Shown piece by piece: positions 3,274 through 31,393 of a stretch of 38,825 nucleotides of DNA. The position numbers and the translations under genes are program-made. The notes below the pieces were generated by a model. The model saw only the letters and a list, made by a program, of their open reading frames with translations, searched no databases and was not told where the DNA came from. The DNA is from a virus. Numbering within the stretch: position 1 is the stretch's first letter; each line of letters opens with the position of its first letter. Location: positions 1 to 38,825 of the IMG/VR virus record IMGVR_UViG_3300042346_001123. One strand, given 5' to 3'.

Positions 3274-4947
3274 ATGTCTAATTTTAGCGATAATGTGCGA
3301 ACAAAGGAGTTTAAGCTCATTCTATCCTCGGAACAAGAGCGAACCCTAGAAGATTGGATGCTAGTCTGTAAGTGGGTTTGGAATCGTTCACTGGGATTGA
3401 TAGAGGAATTTAACGAGTGGAACCCCTACGATAGAATATCAAAGTCTAACGTCCCCGCTACTCCCCTGCAACGATATGATCGCAAGCTCAAGCAATGGGT
3501 ACGAATTGAGATCCCAGATTGGAAGATGGGGATTGAACGAGTTGAGAAGAAAAGGGGATTCATCCATCCCGTTGCTATTGATGAGAATAGTCCGGTTATT
3601 GACTCACTAGATTCTAAAAAATCAGTGCTATACGGATTTCTAAAAATGTTTGGACATCAACACCACAAAGATCGGATCGTGACTTATTTAATTAGAGGTG
3701 AGGAACGAAAAGTCAATTTCACCGACTGCCCTGCAAAATTTATCCAAGGGGTAGCGCATGAACTCTCGAAGGCTTGGGAGGGATTTCTGGCGGGTCGCCA
3801 TAGTCGTCCCCGATTCAAAACAGCCAAAGATAAGGTGATGACTTTGATCCACTATAACGCCAGGGATCTAGGGGTTAAGGATGGTAAAATTAATATTCCT
3901 AAGTTGGGTTATATTGAAGTAATTGGGCTTGATAAGCGGTGGTATGGTTGCGATTTTAACCCGATGAAAATTTGCAAAAAAGCGTCGGGGTGGTATATAC
4001 AATTAACTGCGTCCGTCCCTGTCAAACAAGCCAAGAAGACAGGGTTATGTTGTGGAATTGACCCCGGACATCAGTTTGTTATGGCATTGGATAATGGTCA
4101 CACTATTGAGGCTGCACAACCATTGAAACGTGGGTTAAAACGTTTAAGAAAAATGCAGCAACAATTATCTCGCAAGTATCGAATGAACGGGGGGAAGACT
4201 AAGAACTGGGAGAAACTTAACAATAAGATTGCTAAACTTCACGAAAAGATCGCCCGTCACCGTCGATCTTTTAACCATTGGCATTCGACTAATTTAATTA
4301 ATTGGTTTGATGTGATTTTTGTAGAAGATTATAAACCCGCCAATGTTTACCGAAAAGCTAAAGCTAAGGCAAAACTAGATACAGAGGGGGCTCCAATGGT
4401 AGCTGCAAATGGTACGGCTATCTATGAGAAGAACAATCAGAAACGCAAGCGGGGAAGTAATAGAACAGGAAATGATGTGGCTATCGGTCAGGCTATTGAT
4501 CTATTAGAAACCAAGGGAAAGGAACACGGAAAGTTAGTAATTCGGGTCGATAATTGGGGGACTACTTTATGTTGTGCAAAGTGTGGACACCAAGAGAAGA
4601 AAAAACTATCACAACGAACTCACAAATGCTCTAATTGTGGCTATACTGTGGCTCGTGATGTTAACTCAGGACAGAATATTAAACTGAAAGGTTTGGCTCA
4701 AATGGCAATCAATCAAGGTGTGGAGTTATCCGATAATTTCTGGTATAAATTCTTGATTGATAAAAATTCGGCAACCCCTAGCGGTTCTAAGAAGGCGACC
4801 AAGAAAAAGCCTAAAAAGTCAGACACCGTAATCATTCCAGATGATTTGTTTAAAAATGGGGTTCACGAATTTTTGATCGGTGAAACTGCCAAAACTCGTG
4901 CTATAATAAATGAAATGAGCTTAGGTAATTTCGATAGAAACGCCTGA
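3274..4947 (+). CDS. Compact Cas12 / TnpB-type RuvC nuclease (solitary type V-U-like CRISPR effector)
   Basis: 557 residues. An N-terminal TnpB-like helical region (about 1-185) ends in the family block WEGFLAGRHSRPRFK (168-182). The split RuvC domain has D263 (CCGIDPG), E351 (IFVEDY) and D462 (ARDVNSGQNI), so it looks catalytically intact. A zinc ribbon, C434-x2-C437 and C452-x2-C455, sits between RuvC II and III. A C-terminal extension of about 85 residues is Lys-rich (SKKATKKKPKKS). IS605-type TnpB is usually nearer 400 residues. No TnpA, Cas1, Cas2 or other cas gene is near, and a CRISPR array starts 20 bases after the stop. The start codon has no good ribosome-binding site and abuts a repeat-like sequence. 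Exact subtype (for example V-U2) is not assignable from sequence alone. Confidence 0.85.
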   Translation: MSNFSDNVRTKEFKLILSSEQERTLEDWMLVCKWVWNRSLGLIEEFNEWNPYDRISKSNVPATPLQRYDRKLKQWVRIEIPDWKMGIERVEKKRGFIHPVAIDENSPVIDSLDSKKSVLYGFLKMFGHQHHKDRIVTYLIRGEERKVNFTDCPAKFIQGVAHELSKAWEGFLAGRHSRPRFKTAKDKVMTLIHYNARDLGVKDGKINIPKLGYIEVIGLDKRWYGCDFNPMKICKKASGWYIQLTASVPVKQAKKTGLCCGIDPGHQFVMALDNGHTIEAAQPLKRGLKRLRKMQQQLSRKYRMNGGKTKNWEKLNNKIAKLHEKIARHRRSFNHWHSTNLINWFDVIFVEDYKPANVYRKAKAKAKLDTEGAPMVAANGTAIYEKNNQKRKRGSNRTGNDVAIGQAIDLLETKGKEHGKLVIRVDNWGTTLCCAKCGHQEKKKLSQRTHKCSNCGYTVARDVNSGQNIKLKGLAQMAINQGVELSDNFWYKFLIDKNSATPSGSKKATKKKPKKSDTVIIPDDLFKNGVHEFLIGETAKTRAIINEMSLGNFDRNA

Positions 4948-4966: not shown

Positions 4967-6137
4967 CTCGCAATAGGTGATTATCTGGTTTAAGGATTGA
5001 AACCTCCCTCCTGGGGTGTGTAGGATTGGTATTAATCCGACTCGCAATAGGTGATTATCTGGTTTAAGGATTGAAACTTATTGAATCCTGTGCGATCGCC
5101 ACACTTTCGGGCTTTGATCTCGCAATAGGTGATTATCTGGTTTAAGGATTGAAACAGAAGATAATTTGAGTCCCCCCTTTACTTTTGAATTGATCTCGCA
5201 ATAGGTGATTATCTGGTTTAAGGATTGAAACACAACGGCTCCCATATTGAGTTTCAAATACTTTTCCCTCGCAATAGGTGATTATCTGGTTTAAGGATTG
5301 AAACGCGACTGTTCAACACCGGAATTAAATATAATTCCCGCTCGCAATAGGTGATTATCTGGTTTAAGGATTGAAACTTTCCCATAACTTATCCGGCGGT
5401 TGCTGTTTAGAGAACTCGCAATAGGTGATTATCTGGTTTAAGGATTGAAACTCAAAACCCATACACAGAGGGAGTGCCGGGTAAGTCGCTCGCAATAGGT
5501 GATTGCCTGTTTTAAGGATTGAAACAACGGGTGGGAATCCATTTTTATTAATGATTTAATCAAGCTCGCAATAGGTGATTATCTGGTTTAAGGATTGAAA
5601 CCAGAAAATCAGATTGATTGTATCATAATTGACCCGTTAGATTTCTCGCAATAGGTGATTGCCTGTTTTAAGAATTGAAACATCCATGTTGAATAGTTGG
5701 ATTGCTTGACAACAATACTCGCAATAGGTGATTGCCTGTTTTAAGAATTGAAACTTTAACCCTTCTACAGCATCACTGGATGATATTAAGCCTCGCAATA
5801 GGTGATTGCCTGTTTTAAGAATTGAAACTATATCAGCGATATGGCCGGGCTTTATGGGTATTGCTTGGAGCACTCGCAATAGGTGATTGCCTGTTTTAAG
5901 GATTGAAACATATCGAGATTAATTCATTTGAAAATACTCCCATTGCTGCTCGCAATAGGTGATTGCCTGTTTTAAGGATTGAAACGATTGAATTTGAGCT
6001 ACCATGTCATTAAGTCCTTTAACTATTTCTCGCAATAGGTGATTACCTGTTTTAAGGATTGAAACGATTGGAGTCGGTTGGGAAGCCTTGCAAACGTTAC
6101 CTCGCAATAGGTGATTGCCTGTTTTAAGGATTGAAAC
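4967..6137 (+). CRISPR. CRISPR array, 16 repeats of 37 bp and 15 spacers of 35-44 bp
   Basis: Repeats start at 4967, 5041, 5119, 5195, 5268, 5341, 5415, 5489, 5565, 5645, 5718, 5792, 5873, 5949, 6029 and 6101. All begin CTCGCAATAGGTGATT and end in the common motif ATTGAAAC. The middle varies: ATTATCTGGTTTAAGG in repeats 1-7 and 9, ATTGCCTGTTTTAAGG in 8, 13, 14 and 16, the same with AAGAATTG in 10-12, and ATTACCTG in 15. Orientation by the GAAAC end is rightward, the same as the effector, leaving only 19 bases for a leader. Spacer 2 contains HIP1, pointing to cyanobacterial targets. Short open frames across the array are artefacts of the repeats. Confidence 0.97.
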
Positions 6138-7311: not shown

Positions 7312-8139
7312 TTACTCACCGATAATCATTTGGCGATCGCCTTTTTGATTTGCCCATAATTCCCGAACCTCGTCAACCAACTCCGCAGGGATATAGTCGG
7401 TTTGGACTGGACGCATTGCTTTAGAAATCAGGTGATCTTTACCGCAGGATTCTAACCACTTCTGAAATTCCTTTCCAGTTTTAAACTTTAATTCTTTGCC
7501 AAATTGAGCCAATGACTTCCCACGAAATACAGCTAACTGTTTTCCGTCTTCATTCATGACAACCGATTCAAACTGGGTTTCAGTTTCTCTCACCACCGCT
7601 TCACGACGACCCTGGATGAGTGCCAAGGTTCCCGCCCCATGAAGTGAAACAATGGCAGAACCGGACTCCAAAACAAGTCGTTGATCTCTCATGCTGTTGG
7701 CTTGAGCTTCGGCAATTCTGACTTGTAACCGGAGAAATTCTAGCTCATCATTTTGTTGGGGGATGACGGTTTCAGCTTCACGGGTTTTGATAACGAAGTA
7801 GGCTTGAGCTTGTGCAATTTCCGGTTTGCGGGGGTCGCCGTTCATCGCAACTAAATAACAGGCATATCGGGATAGCTTACAATCCTCTTGAGGGCGACCC
7901 GAAGTTTTTGCCACCTCCGGCAAAAAGTCTTTACTGACTGAGTTTCCGGCATTTTGTTGGGATAGAATAGCTCGGTCAATTGCATCAGCAAATCGTCGGT
8001 ATTGCTTATATCCCAACAGTCCCATTAACTCCCGTGCCATCCAATACTCGCAGCCTTCACGGTCAACGCGCTTAATGGAGTCAAAAGGGGATTTGGATTG
8101 ATTGTGGTCTTGATTGCCAGACAATGCTAAACTAGACAT
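7312..8139 (-). CDS. DinD-like BRO-N domain protein
   Basis: 275 residues. Residues about 18-125 closely follow E. coli DinD: FDSIKRVDREGCEYWMAREL, YRRFADAIDRA, NAGNSVSKDF, then KLSRYACYLVAMNGDPRKPE and AYFVIKTREAE. A coiled-coil segment (FLRLQVRIAEAQANSMRDQR) follows, then a C-terminal domain (LAQFGKELKFKTGKEFQKWLES). DinD is an SOS-induced protein reported to inhibit RecA filaments; phage relatives act as antirepressors. Which role applies here is unknown. The start has a strong AAAGGAGGG site, which lies in the loop and arm of a small hairpin (AACCC/GGGTT). Confidence 0.85.
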   Translation of the reverse strand: MSSLALSGNQDHNQSKSPFDSIKRVDREGCEYWMARELMGLLGYKQYRRFADAIDRAILSQQNAGNSVSKDFLPEVAKTSGRPQEDCKLSRYACYLVAMNGDPRKPEIAQAQAYFVIKTREAETVIPQQNDELEFLRLQVRIAEAQANSMRDQRLVLESGSAIVSLHGAGTLALIQGRREAVVRETETQFESVVMNEDGKQLAVFRGKSLAQFGKELKFKTGKEFQKWLESCGKDHLISKAMRPVQTDYIPAELVDEVRELWANQKGDRQMIIGE

Positions 8140-8850: not shown

Positions 8851-8909
8851 TTACGCAATAACAACACTTTAAAGTTAACATAGTTGAAAACATTGCTACA
8901 ACTTAAAAT
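8851..8909 (+). repeat. 59-bp direct repeat, copy 1, with ParB-gene promoter
   Basis: Identical over 59 bases to 12749-12807, both ending at the ATG of a ParB-domain gene. The copies are 3,898 bases apart. The segment is A/T-rich, contains TTGAAA and TAAAAT promoter-like words and no Shine-Dalgarno sequence. It marks the left end of the modification cassette. Confidence 0.9.
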
Positions 8910-9473
8910 ATGAGTAAACCTAAAATTACTGAGACTGATATCAGCAAATTGACTCCCGATCCGAATAACGCACGGAAAAGAACACCATTGTCGGCAAGCG
9001 TTATTAGGAAATCGTTAGAACAGTTTGGGGCAGCTCGAAGTATTGTTGTCGATGAAAATGACGTGATTCGGGCGGGTAATGGAACCTTTGAGGAGGCGGG
9101 TCAATTAGGGATTGAGAAGGTTGTCACCATTGAGGTAGATGGTAATACTATTGTTGCAGTCAAAAGGAGAGGATTGACTGAGGAACAATGGAAAAAGTAT
9201 GCGATCGCTGATAATACGGCTTCTGATTTTAGTACATGGGATTATGAAATATTGGAGGAGTTGGCTCAAGAGGTAGATTATTCTGAGTTTTTCCCTGATG
9301 ATAAATTGAATGAATTGTTAGAGTCATTGGGTAAAGGTGAAAGTTTTGGCAATACTGAACCCAAGGAAGATGGAAACCCAGAATCACCAGAAGATTTTAA
9401 GGAATATGGAGAAGATATCGAAACCGAACACTGTTGCCCTAAATGTGGTTACAAATGGTCTGGAGGTAAATAA
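8910..9473 (+). CDS. ParB/sulfiredoxin-domain protein heading the DNA-modification operon
   Basis: 187 residues. The first ~140 are a phage-type ParB N-terminal domain: ISKLTPDPNNARKR, SASVIRKSLEQFG, RAGNGTFEEAGQLGI and YAIADNTASDFSTWD. The C-terminus ends CCPKCGYKWSGGK, half of a zinc ribbon, and replaces the methyltransferase domain present in the paralogue at 12808. Such ParB domains are common partners of phage DNA methyltransferases and DNA-hypermodification enzymes. The stop codon is directly followed by the methyltransferase ATG, so the four genes 8910-12596 form one operon. There is no Shine-Dalgarno before the start. Confidence 0.85.
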   Translation: MSKPKITETDISKLTPDPNNARKRTPLSASVIRKSLEQFGAARSIVVDENDVIRAGNGTFEEAGQLGIEKVVTIEVDGNTIVAVKRRGLTEEQWKKYAIADNTASDFSTWDYEILEELAQEVDYSEFFPDDKLNELLESLGKGESFGNTEPKEDGNPESPEDFKEYGEDIETEHCCPKCGYKWSGGK

Positions 9474-10547
9474 ATGAATACCAAACCCATTTATCGTGTT
9501 CCTCTAATGAAAGAGATAGAAGAAATCCCCTGGAACGGGTTTAATGTTGTTTCTACCTTTAGTGGTACTGGTGGCTCATGTCTTGGCTATCGGATGGCTG
9601 GTTATCGGGTGTTGTGGGCTAATGAATTTATTCCTGCGGCTCAGGATTCTTATAAAGCAAATCACCCGAATTCCATCCTTGATAGGAGAGATATTCGGTT
9701 GGTACAGCCAGAAGACATTTTAAGAGCAACTGGCTTAGGTGTTGGCGAAATTGACATATTCGATGGTTCGCCCCCGTGTGCAGCTTTTTCTAAAGCAGGT
9801 AAACGTGATAAAGGATGGGGTGTCGTAAAGAAATATTCAGATACCACGCAACGGGTTGACGATTTGTTTTTTGAATACACCAGACTAATCCAAGGAACAA
9901 AGCCTAAAGTATTTGTTGCTGAAAATGTAGCAGGTTTAGTTACAGGTGTTGCTAAAGGTTATTTTTTAGAGATACTGAGAACTTTAAAAGCCTGTGGCTA
10001 CAAAGTTAAGTGTAAAGTTTTAGATGCTCAGTGGTTAGGTGTTCCACAGGCCAGGCAACGGACTATTTTTATAGGGATTAGAGACGATATTAACTTGGAT
10101 ATCGTCTACCCTATACCATGCAAAAAACAATACACTGTTAGGGATGCAATATCAAATCTAGGGATTGACAATAGTTTGTTTTATAAACTTCCTAAAGGTA
10201 AAATGTTAGATGTTTATATGAACACAAGAGATGACGAGAAAGGTAGATTTGAAGATGCACATTACAGATTGTACGGCAAGGAGTCTTATTTTAATTTTGC
10301 GAGAGCTTGTTGGGATTTACCGTCTAGGACTATTCTACAAAGTAGCCAGGGTATATGTCACCCAGAGATACCCAGAACATTTACTATTTCAGAATTAAAG
10401 CGTATCTGCGCTTTCCCAGATGACTTTATATTATTAGGTTCATTTGCTAAACAATGGGAACGACTGGGGCGTGCTGTTCCCCCTGTTATGATGTCACATA
10501 TAGCCAAAACAATTCAATTAGAAATACTAGAAAAATGTGTGGATTAG
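9474..10547 (+). CDS. DNA (cytosine-5) methyltransferase with altered motif X; predicted Cx-SAM-dependent carboxymethyltransferase
   Basis: 357 residues with the C5-methyltransferase motifs in order: motif I VSTFSGTGGSCLG (26-38), motif IV GSPPCAAFS with catalytic C102, motif VI AENV (149-152), motif VIII QARQRTIFIG, the TRD, motif IX region and motif X GRAVPPV (332-338). The motif X Asn of the normal GNxVPP is Arg (R333). That loop contacts the bound cofactor, and a basic residue there would suit the extra carboxylate of carboxy-SAM. The downstream CmoA homologue supports this. Catalysis otherwise looks intact, so ordinary 5-methylcytosine formation remains the alternative. The next gene overlaps its last 13 bases. 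Confidence 0.85.
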   Translation: MNTKPIYRVPLMKEIEEIPWNGFNVVSTFSGTGGSCLGYRMAGYRVLWANEFIPAAQDSYKANHPNSILDRRDIRLVQPEDILRATGLGVGEIDIFDGSPPCAAFSKAGKRDKGWGVVKKYSDTTQRVDDLFFEYTRLIQGTKPKVFVAENVAGLVTGVAKGYFLEILRTLKACGYKVKCKVLDAQWLGVPQARQRTIFIGIRDDINLDIVYPIPCKKQYTVRDAISNLGIDNSLFYKLPKGKMLDVYMNTRDDEKGRFEDAHYRLYGKESYFNFARACWDLPSRTILQSSQGICHPEIPRTFTISELKRICAFPDDFILLGSFAKQWERLGRAVPPVMMSHIAKTIQLEILEKCVD

Positions 10548-11890
10548 CGGGTACATATAAATCCAGTGTAGATGTAGAGTCTATGCTTCTTAAAATAATA
10601 CATAGGGGGCGAGATGACCAAGGCATTCACAAGCATGGCGATACTGTTCATGGTCACGTTAGGCTGTCTTTACTTGATTTAAGTTCGGCATCTAAACAGC
10701 CTTTTCTCTTGAATAATTCCACTCTTTCATTTAATGGTGAGATATGGAATTATAGAGATATAAAAAAGAAGTTACAAGACGATGGTTGTAGATTTAACAC
10801 AACAGGCGACACCGAAGTATTGAGTCAATTTTTAGATATTTATGGTGTTTCGCAGTTAAATCAACTAGAGGGAATGTTTGCTTTTGCGTGGAGTAAGGAG
10901 CAGGAACATTGGCTTGTGAGAGACCGTTTTGGTGAAATACCTTTGTATCTGGCAAAAACGAATAAAGGGTATATCTGGGCATCTGAAAGAAAAGCATTTC
11001 CTAGTGGTGTTATACCTGTTTCCGTTCCTCCGGGCTATGCTTTTAATCTAGTAAAAGGCGAGTGGTTTCAATGGTATAAACTACCAGGAACAACACCACA
11101 GCAAAATATATTAGATTGCTTGAGTAGGGGTGTAGAACAAAGATTAAATGCCGATGCTCCGGTCTGCTGTCTTATATCGGGCGGATTAGATAGCGTCTTA
11201 GTTCTGCAAATAGCAAAGTCTATAAATAAAAACATCGTAGCTTTCACGGCAAAAATGCGTAACGATTCAAATGATTTACTAGCAGCCAGAAGGGTATGCA
11301 GTGAGTACGAAATTCAATTAATAGAAGTGCCAGTATCTATTGATTTGGATTCCTTAACTAACGCAGCTAAAGTAATAGAAATTAACAGCAAAGCTCAAAT
11401 AGAGATAGCTTCACTGTGCCTACCACTGGCACAAAGGATAAGAGCAGAAGGTTTTAAGTCTTGCTTATCTGGTGAAGCTGCCGATGAGCTTTTTGGCGGT
11501 TATGGTAACTTCTGTATTCAGGCATCCAAAAGTACGAATACAGAAGTTATATCTCTTAGAAAAAGTCAATTAGCAAAAATGTCAAGGGGTAATTTTGTTA
11601 GGTGCAATAAAGCATTTATGTATGGTGGCGTTGAGTGTAGATTGCCATTTATGGATGTTAATTTAGTTGAATATGCCATAAACCTAAACCTCTCGCAATC
11701 ACCAGCAAATAAGAAACTACTGAAATCCGCCGCAGCTAAACTACTGCCTAAGTGGGTGATATCCAGAGTTAAGGATACCTTTCAAGGGGGTAGTGGAGTC
11801 TCTACCTGGACAGAGGAAAATATAGCATCTCCAATAAAATTTTACAACAATGAACTAAAGAAAACTTTTGGATACTTACCCAAGGACTAA
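10535..11890 (+). CDS. AsnB-type glutamine-dependent amidotransferase
   Basis: 451 residues from the ATG at 10535; this start puts the nucleophilic Cys at position 2 (MCGLAG), as the class II amidotransferase mechanism demands, and rules out the earlier in-frame start. The glutaminase half has HRGRDDQG, FNGEIWNY (66-73) and GDTEVL. The synthetase half has the ATP PP-loop SGGLDS (215-220) and LSGEAADELFGGY (311-323). Both active sites look intact. Bacterial AsnB is usually above 550 residues, so this is a compact relative. The family converts a carboxylate to an amide via AMP. In this operon a carboxymethylated base in DNA is the likely acceptor (inference); free aspartate is the conventional one. 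Confidence 0.85.
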   Translation: MCGLAGTYKSSVDVESMLLKIIHRGRDDQGIHKHGDTVHGHVRLSLLDLSSASKQPFLLNNSTLSFNGEIWNYRDIKKKLQDDGCRFNTTGDTEVLSQFLDIYGVSQLNQLEGMFAFAWSKEQEHWLVRDRFGEIPLYLAKTNKGYIWASERKAFPSGVIPVSVPPGYAFNLVKGEWFQWYKLPGTTPQQNILDCLSRGVEQRLNADAPVCCLISGGLDSVLVLQIAKSINKNIVAFTAKMRNDSNDLLAARRVCSEYEIQLIEVPVSIDLDSLTNAAKVIEINSKAQIEIASLCLPLAQRIRAEGFKSCLSGEAADELFGGYGNFCIQASKSTNTEVISLRKSQLAKMSRGNFVRCNKAFMYGGVECRLPFMDVNLVEYAINLNLSQSPANKKLLKSAAAKLLPKWVISRVKDTFQGGSGVSTWTEENIASPIKFYNNELKKTFGYLPKD

Positions 11891-11891
11891 T

Positions 11892-12596
11892 ATGAATAAT
11901 TATCACGTTCCATCTAAAGACAAATGGGAGTTTGACGAATCGGTAACAGATATTTTTGATGATATGTTAGCCCGTTCGATTCCCCAATACGAGGTAATGA
12001 GAAAAGCTGTTTCAAGTATTGCTTGTGAGTTTATGCAGTCTTCTGGTTGTGTAGTCGATATAGGCTGTTCAAGAGGTGAGCAAATAGCTCGTTTAATTCA
12101 ATCCTATGGCGCGGGTTGTCACTATCACGGAATAGAAATTAGTGAGCCGATGATTGGTGCAGCTAAAGACAAGTTCAAAAACCATCATTGTGTCAAATTA
12201 CATGAATTGGATTTGAGAAAAGATTGGTTAACCATTGAAAACATATCTGTCACTTTGTCTGTTTTAACCTTGCAATTTATTCCGATTGAATACAGGTTAG
12301 GACTACTTAAAAAAATCTATGATTCAACTCGAAAAGGCGGGTGTTTTATCTTGGTTGAAAAAGTTATTGGTGGGTCTGCTGATATTGACTCACTATTAAC
12401 AAATCAATACTACAATTTAAAACACCAGAATGGTTACTCTGTCTATGAGATAGAAAGAAAGCGTTTAAGTCTTGAGGGTGTTTTAGTTCCTGTAACAGCT
12501 AATTGGAATGAAGAAATGCTAAAACTATCTGGTTTCACTGAAGTTGATTGTTTTTGGCGATGGATGAATTTTGTTGGATGGGTTGCTATCAAATAA
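11892..12596 (+). CDS. cmoA: CmoA-like carboxy-SAM synthase
   Basis: 234 residues from the ATG at 11892, one base after the AsnB stop. It follows E. coli CmoA along its length: WEFDESVTDIFDDMLARSIP (12-31) against W.FDE.V...F.DM..RS.P, SAM motif VVDIGCSRGEQ (54-64), LTLQFIPIEYRLGLLKKIYD, GGCFILVEK, GYSVYEIERKR (181-191), and NFVGWVAIK at the end. R191 aligns with E. coli CmoA Arg199, the residue that contacts the carboxylate of Cx-SAM. CmoA uses prephenate and SAM. No CmoB is present, so tRNA wobble modification is not the obvious use. A Cx-SAM supply for the adjacent C5 enzyme is the favoured role. Confidence 0.85.
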   Translation: MNNYHVPSKDKWEFDESVTDIFDDMLARSIPQYEVMRKAVSSIACEFMQSSGCVVDIGCSRGEQIARLIQSYGAGCHYHGIEISEPMIGAAKDKFKNHHCVKLHELDLRKDWLTIENISVTLSVLTLQFIPIEYRLGLLKKIYDSTRKGGCFILVEKVIGGSADIDSLLTNQYYNLKHQNGYSVYEIERKRLSLEGVLVPVTANWNEEMLKLSGFTEVDCFWRWMNFVGWVAIK

Positions 12597-12616: not shown

Positions 12617-12644
12617 AATTAATCCGGCGGTTGCCGGATTAATT
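12617..12644. terminator. Hairpin after the modification operon
   Basis: AATTAATCCGG and CCGGATTAATT form an 11-bp perfect stem with a 6-base loop. It is stacked directly against the longer terminator at 12644-12683. Confidence 0.5.
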
Positions 12645-12683
12645 ATCAAAAAGCCTAGGGGTTGAATCCTAGGCTTTTTGATA
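12644..12683. terminator. Strong terminator of the modification operon
   Basis: A perfect 16-bp stem (TATCAAAAAGCCTAGG with its complement) and 8-base loop, giving a U-run in each direction. It closes the 8910-12596 operon before the second ParB promoter. Confidence 0.8.
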
Positions 12684-12748: not shown

Positions 12749-12807
12749 TTACGCAATAACAACACTTTAAAGTTAACATAGTTGAAAACATTGCTACAAC
12801 TTAAAAT
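12749..12807 (+). repeat. 59-bp direct repeat, copy 2, with ParB-gene promoter
   Basis: Identical to 8851-8909. The identity drops just after the ATG, where the coding sequences differ by many synonymous changes. The upstream non-coding part is thus better conserved than the gene, which suggests selection on a control element or recent recombination. Confidence 0.9.
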
Positions 12808-14406
12808 ATGAGTAAGCCCAAAATTACTGAGACTGATATCTCTAAACTAACTCCCGATCCTAACAATGCCCGCAAAAGAACGCCCTTATCAGCAAGCGTT
12901 ATTAGGAAATCAATTGAACAATTCGGGATGACTCGGAGTATTGTCCTTGATGAGAATGGGGTGATTTTAGCGGGTAACGGGGCGTTTGAGGAGGCGGGTC
13001 AATTAGGTATTGAAAGGGTGATCGTCGTCGAGACAACAGGTAATGAGATAGTGGCGGTGAAACGGACTAATCTTACTGCTGAACAGAAAACTCAATATGC
13101 GATCGCTGATAATACGGCATCTGATTTCTCGACTTGGGACTTTGATATTTTGAGTGAGTTAACTCAGGAAGTTGATCTATCTGAGTTTTTCCCTGATGAT
13201 AAATTAAATGAATTATTGGAACAGTTGGGTAAAGGTGAAAGTTTTGGAGTTACTGAACAAGGGGAAGAAAACGAGGAAGAAATTGCTGAACTTCTGGATA
13301 AGGTAGATGAGATTGAGTCACGGGTTAAGTTGGGTGAAATATGGCAGTTAGGACGACATAAAATATGCGCGGGTGATTCTACTATCGAGAGGAATGTTAG
13401 GGCTTTGTTGGGGGATAGCAAGGCGGTATTAGTCCATGCAGATCCACCTTATGGAATGGGTAAGGAAAAAGATGGAGTTCTGAATGATAATCTCTACCGA
13501 GAAAAGTTAGATGATTTTCAGATGAAATGGATCAGGGCTTGTCGTGGGAATGTAGAAGATAATGGCAGTTTTTATATTTGGGGTAATGCTGAGGATTTGT
13601 GGCGGTTATGGTATTCGGGCGGGTTGAAAGATAGTGAGAGGTTGACTTTTAGGAATGAGATTGTTTGGGATAAAGCAAATGCGTCAGGATTGTATGATGG
13701 GAACGGCATAGGATCATCTATAGGAAGACAGTTTGCTAACATCTCAGAACGCTGTTTATTTTATATGGTTGGTGAGCAGGGATTTAATAATAATGCTGAT
13801 AATTATTGGGAAGGATGGGAACCAATCAGGCTATACCTTGATAATGAGCGCAAGAAATCAGGGTTAACAACGGCACAATGTAACAAGATTTGTGGCAAAC
13901 AGAATATGACTCAATCTGCTTTTACAAAAGGTGGTTTTAGACTGATTTTAGAGGAGGATTATACTGCTTTACGGAGCGCAGCAAAAGGCGAAGCCTTTAA
14001 ACGGGAATATGACGAACTTAAAAAGGAATATGACAAACTTAAAAAGGAATATGACAAACTTAAAAAGGAATATTATGCCACCCGTGCCTATTTCAATAAT
14101 ACCCACGAAAACATGACCGATGTATGGGAATATCCCAGAGTTCAGGGTGAGGAGCGATGGGGTCACGCCACACCCAAACCCGTTGATATGATTGCCAGAA
14201 TTTATAAAAGTAGTTCACCCGATGATGGGATTATTTATTCACCATTTTTAGGGTCTGGGACGGATATTATTGCTGGTGAGAAATCAGGAGGCGATCGCAC
14301 CGTCGCAGGATTCGAGTTATCACCCGCATATTGTGAAATTATCTGTCAAAGATTTTCCAAACTAACAGGAATTGAGCCTAAACTAATCGGAAAATTGCCA
14401 GATTAA
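12808..14406 (+). CDS. ParB-domain fused to DNA N6-adenine/N4-cytosine methyltransferase
   Basis: 532 residues. Residues 1-145 are a ParB domain paralogous to 8910-9473. LGRHKICAGDS (181-191) and the catalytic DPPY (212-215) come next, and the SAM motif FLGSGT (480-485) is near the C-terminus, so motif order IV before I places it in the beta class. The central target-recognition part contains a run of KKEYDKL heptads (about 400-422) encoded by tandem 21-bp repeats. The DPPY tetrad does not separate adenine from cytosine as target. No restriction enzyme is adjacent, so it is an orphan protective or regulatory methylase. No Shine-Dalgarno is seen; the promoter is in the 59-bp repeat. Confidence 0.9.
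   Translation: MSKPKITETDISKLTPDPNNARKRTPLSASVIRKSIEQFGMTRSIVLDENGVILAGNGAFEEAGQLGIERVIVVETTGNEIVAVKRTNLTAEQKTQYAIADNTASDFSTWDFDILSELTQEVDLSEFFPDDKLNELLEQLGKGESFGVTEQGEENEEEIAELLDKVDEIESRVKLGEIWQLGRHKICAGDSTIERNVRALLGDSKAVLVHADPPYGMGKEKDGVLNDNLYREKLDDFQMKWIRACRGNVEDNGSFYIWGNAEDLWRLWYSGGLKDSERLTFRNEIVWDKANASGLYDGNGIGSSIGRQFANISERCLFYMVGEQGFNNNADNYWEGWEPIRLYLDNERKKSGLTTAQCNKICGKQNMTQSAFTKGGFRLILEEDYTALRSAAKGEAFKREYDELKKEYDKLKKEYDKLKKEYYATRAYFNNTHENMTDVWEYPRVQGEERWGHATPKPVDMIARIYKSSSPDDGIIYSPFLGSGTDIIAGEKSGGDRTVAGFELSPAYCEIICQRFSKLTGIEPKLIGKLPD
14005..14073 (+). repeat. Tandem 21-bp coding repeats in the methyltransferase
   Basis: Three units of GAATATGACAAACTTAAAAA-type sequence (14005-14025, 14026-14046, 14047-14067) plus a partial fourth; unit 1 differs by one base. 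Each encodes one heptad EYDKLKK, so copy-number changes keep the frame and lengthen a coiled coil. Confidence 0.9.
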
Positions 14407-15589: not shown

Positions 15590-16207
15590 ATGAGTGTCGC
15601 TCACAGTAACGGTTTGACCGCTTCTCGTACTGAGTCAATCTTCTTAACTGTTGATTGTTTCAAAGCGTTGGGGATGATGGCGGGTACAGAAAAGGGGCGG
15701 GAGACTCGACAATATTTCCTCCGGTGCGAAAAGGAATTAAAATATTCTAAGTCCACTGGTGGGATGAACCTATTAGACAAACCCTCACCTCAGTTGATTA
15801 GTGATGCGATTATGGCAGTCTTCCGACCTACCAATGTTGACCCAACACTTGTCTCAGGGATTATTGCCAACAATATCGCTAAAACTTATCCGGCGTTGGC
15901 TCCTGCGATGGAAGAAGCCAAAAAACATCTAACCGTCGAAGTTGAGGGAAAACTTCTCACGCCCACCGAACTCGGATTAATTTTAGAACAGCGCACTGGA
16001 CAAAAACACTCGGCGCAACGGGTCAACAAACTATTAGCCGAGAATGGATTGCAAACTCCTAACCCCACGGGGAAAGATCCGGCTTGGGTTCCAACTCCAG
16101 AGGGGAGTGCTTTTTCCAAACTATTACTTGCAGCGCAGAAGGGCGTTAAGGATGCGACTAGACAACATTTGCAGTGGTTTGAATCCGTTGTAGATGTTTT
16201 GGCTTAG
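15590..16207 (+). pseudogene. Antirepressor lacking its N-terminal domain
   Basis: 205 codons. The start ([29 protein letters not shown]) corresponds to the middle of the AntA-like domain in the upstream gene ([16 protein letters not shown]), and the rest is the C-terminal antirepressor part ([34 protein letters not shown]). An in-frame stop sits six codons above the ATG and no ribosome-binding site is present. Reinitiation after the stop of 15581, 8 bases away, could still express it. The pair 15018/15590 thus looks like a split and partly duplicated single ancestor. Confidence 0.6.
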
Positions 16208-24752: not shown

Positions 24753-25304
24753 ATGATTATACAACAACTTTGTCTGTTTGAAACACAACCATCACTAATT
24801 GATTCAAACGAAAATTATACCCCATCTGATTTGATTGATTTAGTCCATAAGTTTTATGGATTTCCTGAATTAGACCCTTTTAGCTGTGAACAAGCTAATC
24901 AAATTATTAAAGCTCAAAAGATATTTACAATTCAAGATGATGGATTTAAACAGAACTGGAGACGGGCTAAAACACTCTGGTTGAACCCTCCCTACAGCGC
25001 GGGATTTATTGAGAAGGTTGTCGATAAATTGATTGCAACATTGAACGAGACTGAAGCGGAAGCATTCTTGTTAACCAATACCGACAACAGTACGGTTTGG
25101 TACAAAAAGGCTTTGAATCGGTGCGATCGCTTCTGCCTACCGTCAACTCGGTTAACTTTTTATTCCCCAAAACGGGCGCAGGATGGGAAGAAACAAAACC
25201 AAAACCGATTCTCCCAAACTCTATTTTATTTTGGATTGCAACCTCAAAGATTTGAGGAAATTTTTGAGGGTTGGGGAACTGTTTGCCAGACTTCCAAATG
25301 GTAA
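24753..25304 (+). CDS. Phage-type DNA N6-adenine methyltransferase
   Basis: 183 residues. NYTPSDLIDLVHKFYGFPELDPF (21-43) and the catalytic LWLNPPYS (75-82; NPPY 78-81) with the C-terminal RFSQTLFYFG are typical of the phage Dam family (DNA N-6-adenine-methyltransferase). The SAM-binding part is reduced as usual. The N-terminus MIIQQLCLFETQ includes QLCLF, close to the QLxLF clamp-binding consensus. TAGGAGTAAACAACA before the ATG gives a good ribosome-binding site. Third DNA methyltransferase of the window; no partner nuclease seen. Confidence 0.85.
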   Translation: MIIQQLCLFETQPSLIDSNENYTPSDLIDLVHKFYGFPELDPFSCEQANQIIKAQKIFTIQDDGFKQNWRRAKTLWLNPPYSAGFIEKVVDKLIATLNETEAEAFLLTNTDNSTVWYKKALNRCDRFCLPSTRLTFYSPKRAQDGKKQNQNRFSQTLFYFGLQPQRFEEIFEGWGTVCQTSKW

Positions 25305-30844: not shown

Positions 30845-31393
30845 TTAGTTTGTCTCCAATTTCTGACTGTTTGCATCTAAATACCCCGCTATCGCACCAC
30901 CAATAAACCCTGCCAGATGACCTTCCCAACTAATCCCTTGCGCAACCGATGGCAGCATTCCGCCGATTAAACCTTGAAATATTACCCAAGTGATTGTTGC
31001 ACATACCAAATTAGGGAAATCCAACCGGAATATAGCTGACAAAAGGCAAAATCCAAAAAATCCATATATCACCCCGCTTGCTCCTATATGATTTGAACCA
31101 GGTTGACCAAAGAACCAAACACCAAAGCCTTCAATTATTGAAATCAGCCAAAAGTTGTAATTAAATTTTCCAGGGGCTTTGAAAATTGTCAAAGTTGCCA
31201 ATGGCAAATATCCGACTGTGTTCCCTATCAAGTGTTGGGGATCTCCGTGTAGGAATGGCGAGGTTATAATTCCCAACATTCCTATACCTTCCACTCCTGG
31301 TCTGATTCCAAAATAATCAAATCCGGGGAAAAACATCTCTAAAGCCCACATTATTCCCAGATAGGTAGCTGCACACTTAAAATCTTTCAACAT
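30845..31393 (-). CDS. Rhomboid family intramembrane serine protease
   Basis: 182 residues with six or so hydrophobic segments. The rhomboid signatures are HGDPQHLIGNT (49-59), catalytic GASG with Ser106, and WEGHLAGFIGG with catalytic His159. Both members of the Ser/His dyad are present. Rhomboids cut within or near membrane segments of substrates. Phage copies are uncommon; neighbours are small membrane proteins that could be substrates. The stop abuts the start of 30844 (no gap), so they are coupled. Confidence 0.85.
   Translation of the reverse strand: MLKDFKCAATYLGIMWALEMFFPGFDYFGIRPGVEGIGMLGIITSPFLHGDPQHLIGNTVGYLPLATLTIFKAPGKFNYNFWLISIIEGFGVWFFGQPGSNHIGASGVIYGFFGFCLLSAIFRLDFPNLVCATITWVIFQGLIGGMLPSVAQGISWEGHLAGFIGGAIAGYLDANSQKLETN

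Follow-up and report, generated by a model that had tools for sequence, protein, structure and literature searches.

What does a viral operon make when it encodes a ParB-fold protein, a DNA cytosine C5-methyltransferase (MTase) homologue, an AsnB-like amidotransferase and a homologue of CmoA, the synthase of carboxy-S-adenosylmethionine (Cx-SAM)? Such an operon lies at 8910-12596 of IMG/VR record IMGVR_UViG_3300042346_001123, of which positions 1-38,825 were analyzed (38,825 nt; hereafter the window). A first-pass annotation had proposed that DNA cytosine is carboxymethylated with Cx-SAM and then amidated to 5-carbamoylmethylcytosine, shielding phage DNA from restriction. Our analysis indicates, with a probability that we put at roughly 0.75, that the operon encodes a phage module for DNA hypermodification of the CmoA-CmoX-CmoY kind, in its glutaminase branch.

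The pathway has a precedent. In Synechococcus phage S-B43, CmoA-CmoX-CmoY leads from Cx-SAM to 5-carboxymethylcytosine (5cxmC) and on to its glycine amide (PMC12783734, Nat Commun, 7 December 2025). The enzyme SpCmoX is a C5-MTase homologue with Arg350 in place of the usual Asn; this Arg binds the Cx-SAM carboxylate, and the wild type accepts only Cx-SAM. SpCmoY, the only characterized CmoY, ligates glycine; the same study also describes a second cluster of ligases, which have a glutaminase domain, and predicts ammonia as their amine. By its sequence the window operon is assigned to this second branch. The idea of the first-pass annotation is not new, as both the pathway and the ammonia prediction for the glutaminase ligase cluster are already in PMC12783734. 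The genes and catalytic residues are as follows.

8910-9473, + strand: ParB/Srx-fold stand-alone protein, operon gene 1 (187 aa; PHROG 620, AlphaFold2 fold)
9474-10547, + strand: CmoX, predicted DNA cytosine C5-carboxymethyltransferase (best match PDB 8yf3; PF00145)
9777-9779, + strand: CmoX catalytic Cys102 (SPPC at residues 99-102, then Ala; from comparison with homologues)
10470-10472, + strand: CmoX Arg333, equivalent of SpCmoX Arg350 (alignment to 8yf3; Asn in ordinary C5-MTases)
10535-11890, + strand: CmoY, glutaminase-type AsnB-like amidotransferase (451 aa; GATase_6/7 and Asn_synthase)
10538-10540, + strand: CmoY catalytic Cys2 (N-terminal Met-Cys from ATG 10535)
11892-12596, + strand: CmoA, predicted Cx-SAM synthase (234 aa; TIGR00740; PDB YecO/CmoA 1im8, 4gek, 4iwn)

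Inspection of the open reading frames (ORFs) in the window confirms the four coupled genes of the first-pass annotation, all intact, contiguous and in the same direction in one tight operon, with start codons slightly corrected. Its claim of overlaps or 0-1 base gaps also holds: the ParB TAA directly abuts the CmoX ATG at 9474 (gap 0), CmoY starts at the ATG that yields its Met-Cys and overlaps CmoX by 13 nt, and a gap of 1 separates its end from the CmoA ATG, for which TTG 11868 of the ORF list is an alternative start. Conservation of the neighborhood, which that annotation had suggested as a check, was found as well. Glutaminase-type CmoY was found on 82 distinct contigs, of which 76 carry CmoX and CmoA too, and because the order ParB-CmoX-CmoY-CmoA recurs in 62 of these 82 fetched viral contigs, the four-gene operon is far beyond chance.

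Predicted enzymes of the operon

In profile searches CmoX matches PF00145 (DNA_methylase, E 1.1e-55) and also the dcm family, and its best solved structure is SpCmoX, 8YF3 (232 bits, E 6e-68), with M.HaeIII at 106 bits (E 2.5e-29). Whereas ordinary C5-MTases mostly have PPC-Q, the window enzyme has SPPC-A; the residue after the catalytic Cys is Ala or Ser in nearly all enzymes with Arg at the position of SpCmoX residue 350, and Gln or other in those with Asn. Homologues of the C5-MTase (188 distinct sequences) were drawn from IMG/VR and reference phages, their loci being retrieved partly via CmoY and partly via CmoX alone. Arg occupies position 350 in 174 of the 188, and 169 of these 174 have CmoA on the fetched stretch; Asn is found in 12, none of which has a CmoA neighbor (169/5 versus 0/12, Fisher p 2.5e-15, a value overstated owing to sequence kinship). 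The five Arg-type enzymes lacking CmoA lie mostly close to contig ends. Aphanizomenon phage CL131, which has Asn at the Cx-SAM site and no CmoA nearby, can be taken from its sequence as a natural negative control for this association. Because the nearest structure is SpCmoX, the Cx-SAM-reading Arg is present and Arg tracks CmoA neighbors, Cx-SAM-dependent C5-carboxymethylation of cytosine by the window CmoX, the first step put forward by the first-pass annotation, is a strongly supported prediction, its chemistry being near-certain by homology.

For CmoA, TIGR00740 is the best model (159 bits, E 1.1e-46, cutoff 193); the proven SpCmoA scores 116 bits. The protein is 84-85% identical to close relatives and 21-52% to others, and the residues common to 13 phage CmoAs largely match E. 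coli CmoA. Arg199 of the E. coli enzyme, the sole CmoA contact to the Cx-SAM carboxylate (PMC4482062), is kept in the window as Arg191. In many such operons the place of CmoA is taken by a short divergent CmoA-like class (~220 aa) without the C-terminal part of CmoA, for which TIGR00740 is still the best NCBIfam model; examples come from the fetched loci L019:3174-3827, L020:6577-7245 and L005:5067-5714 and from Moraxella phage Mcat8.

An AlphaFold2 model of CmoY (predicted local distance difference test, pLDDT, 93) has E. coli AsnB, 1CT9, as its best solved structure (Z 44.8, 2.1 Å over 439 residues), covering both domains. The N-terminal class II glutaminase domain is complete, so that the enzyme is not of the glycine-ligating SpCmoY type, which has the synthetase domain alone; an N-terminal Cys glutaminase and an SGG.DS synthetase, linked to CmoX and CmoA, are all found here. 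Cys2, R43, G68, D92, the SGG.DS loop, D317 and K413 are identical in 79 of 79 distinct full-length relatives, and N67 (76/79), E69 (72/79) and E314 (78/79) are nearly so; their equivalence to AsnB numbering is presumed from the alignment and from what is generally known of AsnB. Such conservation favors a predicted enzyme able both to hydrolyze glutamine and to adenylate a carboxylate. The catalytic motifs called intact in the first pass are indeed so, in CmoX (SPPC with Cys102) and in both CmoY domains, and its amidation step, with glutamine-derived ammonia, is judged probable from the nearly invariant glutaminase and synthetase residues. A free asparagine synthetase was considered and is unlikely: the operon context argues against it, and the score against the asn_synth_AEB model is marginal (259.9 bits, cutoff 267.1, for a query starting at residue 3).

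The distribution of ligases is consistent with this assignment. Loci with CmoX and CmoA have the glutaminase-type CmoY in 112 cases, the short SpCmoY type in 39 and both in 0 (locus counts, some contigs having been fetched more than once). The two types thus appear to behave as alternatives, as expected if the same carboxylate were finished with different amines.

The ParB domain named in the first-pass annotation is borne out. The gene matches PHROG 620 (E 4.4e-33) and has no Pfam match; its AlphaFold2 model (pLDDT 82) resembles ParB-N and sulfiredoxin folds with a middling Z of up to 8.0 over 75 residues, other fold matches being at noise level. Its identity follows from the PHROG match and this fold together. 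The Arg-bearing nucleotide motif (GERR/GHGR box), GHGR in most relatives, reads GNGT in the window, and because the Arg is lost, CTP-switch behavior of this protein seems doubtful. The ParB alignment brings out one further element.

9387-9470, + strand: conserved ParB C-terminal tail, P..F...DE.IETEH.CPKCGY.WSG, with a CxxC pair

In this tail P160, F163, C176, P177, C179 and S184 are invariant in 28 ParB proteins. A CPKCGY-like CxxC tail ends nearly all aligned stand-alone ParBs, and a paralogue in which ParB is fused to a MTase lacks it. We suggest that the tail may dock or dimerize ParB with the modification enzyme in trans.

Exchange of the recognition domain and of the cassette

Comparison of the window with its close relatives brings out two kinds of exchange at this locus, involving the following features.

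10149-10406, + strand: CmoX target-recognition domain (TRD), swapped for unrelated sequence in near-identical relatives
8851-9360, + strand: direct repeat of ~510 bp, left copy (ParB head and upstream sequence; 513-column match, 79% identity, to 12749-13258)
12749-13258, + strand: direct repeat of ~510 bp, right copy (start of the ParB-MTase fusion and upstream sequence; match to 8851-9360)
12808-14406, + strand: ParB-(N6/N4) DNA MTase fusion, the alternative allele, here in tandem (PF01555, E 1.4e-28; PHROG 498)
12620-12680, no strand: two inverted repeats right after CmoA, TAATCCGGC/GCCGGATTA and CAAAAAGCCTAGG/CCTAGGCTTTTTG (read in the sequence, coordinates counted by eye)

The variable segment of CmoX corresponds to the TRD of C5-MTases. 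Between most alleles DNA identity in this part is 0.36-0.50, while the flanks are at 0.78-1.00. The related stretches L018 and L009 illustrate the swap: they share 98.9% identity across 3,827 bp up to a point within CmoX, with 3 differences in the first 675 nt of that gene, and 97.9% across 2,329 bp starting further inside CmoX and onward, whereas between YTVRDA and FPDDF identity is 40% (255 versus 186 nt). Four alleles are seen, shared by the window and L016; by L010, L013, L017 and L018; by L008, L009, L011, L012 and L015; and held by L014, whose TRD is longer than the L018 allele and related to it (73%). A constant catalytic body combined with a changing recognition part fits a change of the sequences needing protection. 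Neither "TRD" nor "recognition domain" occurs in the main text of PMC12783734, and the TRD swap between otherwise ~99% identical stretches goes beyond that text. Natural TRD alleles on a near-constant body are ready material for finding carboxymethyltransferases with different target sites.

The second exchange involves the whole cassette. DNA identity makes Planktothrix phage PaV-LD a relative of the window: the two records share syntenic blocks, the main ones at ~85-96%. PaV-LD, L196-L203 and L217 have nothing but the ParB-MTase fusion at the locus, the ParB-CmoX-CmoY-CmoA allele is found in L008-L018, and both classes lie between similar flanking genes. The window has one of each in tandem, and neither shares its ParB head or upstream sequence with the other. 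Nowhere in the PaV-LD record is there a CmoA, and its one C5-MTase is distant and lies elsewhere. On the simplest reading, cassettes are exchanged by recombination at the ParB head and the window may represent the double state. The exchange of ParB-CmoXYA and a ParB-N-MTase fusion at one locus in PaV-LD-like phages is likewise beyond the text of PMC12783734. Such phages may thus re-tool their modification in two ways, by whole-cassette exchange behind a shared ParB head and by TRD replacement inside CmoX.

A cellular origin was considered and rejected: a genome-contig scan with CmoY gave no close cellular copy, only AsnB-like matches of 25-31% in Ktedonobacteria and archaea, without a CmoX or convincing CmoA neighbor. 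The inverted repeats after CmoA are a possible operon terminator; they are absent from the pattern-scan listing of the window, in which promoter and terminator scans gave no signal above shuffle level and were uninformative.

Several other features of the window were noted. Within the ParB-MTase fusion, a 21-bp tandem repeat (3.7 copies, 13997-14073) encodes a charged coiled-coil-like linker inside the N-MTase domain. A Dam-type N6-adenine MTase gene (PF05869) lies at 24753-25304 in a block 96% DNA-identical to PaV-LD, Bro-N/anti-repressor-like genes surround the operon (7312-8139, 2151-2933 and 15590-16207), and a rhomboid-family intramembrane protease is encoded at 30845-31393 (PF01694, E 4e-17). 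In PaV-LD (NC_016564) the ParB-MTase locus has, within a few kb, a gene annotated as Lar-like restriction alleviation protein (9745-10001); the block around this gene is conserved near 19.8-20.1 kb of the window. The gene of a C2c8/Cas12u2-like type V effector (3274-4947; NF038192 296 bits, cutoff 350; PADLOC Cas12u2 E 1.8e-106) is directly followed by an array of 16 clustered regularly interspaced short palindromic repeats (CRISPR; 4967-6137) with a 37-nt repeat ending GATTGAAAC; PaV-LD has only two repeats at this place. For one spacer (5526-5564) a 39-nt match of 97.4% identity was found in plasmids of Planktothrix agardhii, and in one such plasmid the matching site lies just upstream of a CyRepA1 replication gene. 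The phage-borne CRISPR is possibly aimed at host plasmids.

Product, role and competing explanations

In the proposed scheme CmoA would carboxylate S-adenosylmethionine using prephenate to give Cx-SAM. CmoX would flip cytosine out of its recognition site, Cys102 attacking C6, and would transfer the carboxymethyl group to C5 while Arg333 holds the Cx-SAM carboxylate, yielding 5cxmC. CmoY would activate the new carboxylate with ATP as an acyl-AMP, and its Cys2 glutaminase domain would free ammonia from glutamine to aminate it, giving 5-carbamoylmethylcytosine as the predicted product. The ParB-fold protein would serve as an accessory head of phage DNA modification enzymes, in trans here and fused in 12808-14406. 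For homologues, Cx-SAM synthesis, 5cxmC formation, glycine amide ligation and HhaI resistance are demonstrated (PMC12783734); for the window we infer all activities of the proteins, the use of ammonia as amine, and what ParB does, a frequent neighbor (ParBc) of the CmoX system to which those authors assign no function. The modified cytosines would protect phage DNA against the many restriction systems of the host. We consider this role the most likely one; few cyanobacterial genera are as rich in restriction systems as Planktothrix (PMC8262939), and 5cxmC blocks HhaI, the single case for which protection is shown (PMC12783734).

Several points weigh against the assignment to a phage module of the glutaminase branch. 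For that branch PMC12783734 obtained no soluble enzyme. By the same locus counts as above, 66 loci with CmoX and CmoA have neither ligase type in the stretch fetched, so that perhaps not all such systems amidate their product. In the glutamine pocket, a few CmoY relatives carry T for E69 or V for N67. The Arg199 equivalent of CmoA does not discriminate, since the proven SpCmoA has Glu there, and it was dropped as a test. No virion gene was found in the window in the searches run, so that PaV-LD homology and the window's relatives are what mark it as a phage; among the ten records searched, terminase and portal families are absent from the window, with terminase in three others (two above cutoff, one being the close relative behind L018) and portal in one other.

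Even if 5cxmC is made, CmoY might join glycine, another amino acid or a polyamine to it, not ammonia. Glycine is the amine of the sole characterized CmoY (PMC12783734). The structural neighbors of CmoY also include beta-lactam synthetase, an AsnB-fold enzyme that forms other amide bonds. Beta-lactam synthetases, however, are known to have lost the glutaminase, and the glycine-type CmoY has no glutaminase domain, whereas the window enzyme has one, with Cys2 invariant in its 79 relatives; moreover, the short and glutaminase types never occur together in one locus. We regard a different amine as unlikely. Still less probable is a module that is active but serves mainly phage packaging or transcription regulation, or conflict with competing elements. 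An exchangeable cassette with a ParB head could suit such a role, effects on RNA polymerase are raised in PMC12783734, and the CRISPR effector and array make conflict between elements plausible; yet TRD exchange, which changes the modified sequences, fits restriction escape, as do the abundance of restriction systems in Planktothrix (PMC8262939) and the block of HhaI by 5cxmC (PMC12783734).

It is very improbable that the C5 enzyme is an ordinary 5-methylcytosine MTase, with the AsnB and CmoA genes serving host metabolism or transfer RNA. The PF00145/dcm family match would allow it, but Asn-to-Arg at the Cx-SAM site and SPPC-A/S for PPC-Q are both tied to CmoA presence, the operon is conserved across viral contigs, and wild-type SpCmoX takes Cx-SAM only (PMC12783734). 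We rejected an ordinary identity on Arg333 and its tie to CmoA.

With the hypermodification module as the preferred assignment, we favor, with moderate confidence, a broader proposal: freshwater cyanophages, and one or more Streptomyces phages, would naturally contain 5-carbamoylmethylcytosine as a DNA base, installed in PaV-LD-like phages by an exchangeable ParB-headed cassette whose specificity is re-set by CmoX TRD swap. The predicted ammonia branch of a new hypermodification pathway is now placed in a lineage of phages whose hosts are toxic, bloom-forming cyanobacteria. The literature searched, which left bioRxiv and most subscription papers outside its scope, yielded no report of carbamoylmethylcytosine in DNA. 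Novelty is low for the system as such, and moderate for the predicted product, the allele exchange and the TRD exchange.

Comparison with known systems

The S-B43 system (PMC12783734; PDB 8YF3) likewise combines, in one cluster, a Cx-SAM synthase, an Arg-type SPPC C5-carboxymethyltransferase and an AsnB-fold ligase. The window differs in its CmoY, which has the N-terminal class II glutaminase (451 versus 271 aa), in the order ParB-X-Y-A with a ParB gene present, and in its TRD. The glutaminase ligase cluster of the same paper (representative A0A7T0Q3R0) shares the glutaminase and AsnB synthetase linked to CmoX/CmoA, with ammonia predicted; no functional difference was found, both sides being known from sequence, and what the window contributes is a copy in a cyanophage, together with the exchange of alleles and of the TRD. 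E. coli AsnB (1CT9) shares the whole-chain fold and the glutaminase and ATP catalytic residues with the window CmoY, which is 28% identical, ~100 residues shorter and presumed to act on a DNA carboxylate, not aspartate. ORF098 of PaV-LD, a ParB-methyltransferase, has the same locus and ParB head as the window operon but bears an N6/N4-MTase tail, in a genome without CmoA or a close CmoX.

The same four genes in the same order are found in the cultured Streptomyces phage TurkishDelight (gp122-gp125, NC_073473; host Streptomyces scabiei), where they are annotated just as ParB-like, methyltransferase and amidotransferase. Its CmoX is 49%, its glutaminase-type CmoY 33% and its CmoA-like protein 24% identical to those of the window, and in this phage the product could be sought directly.

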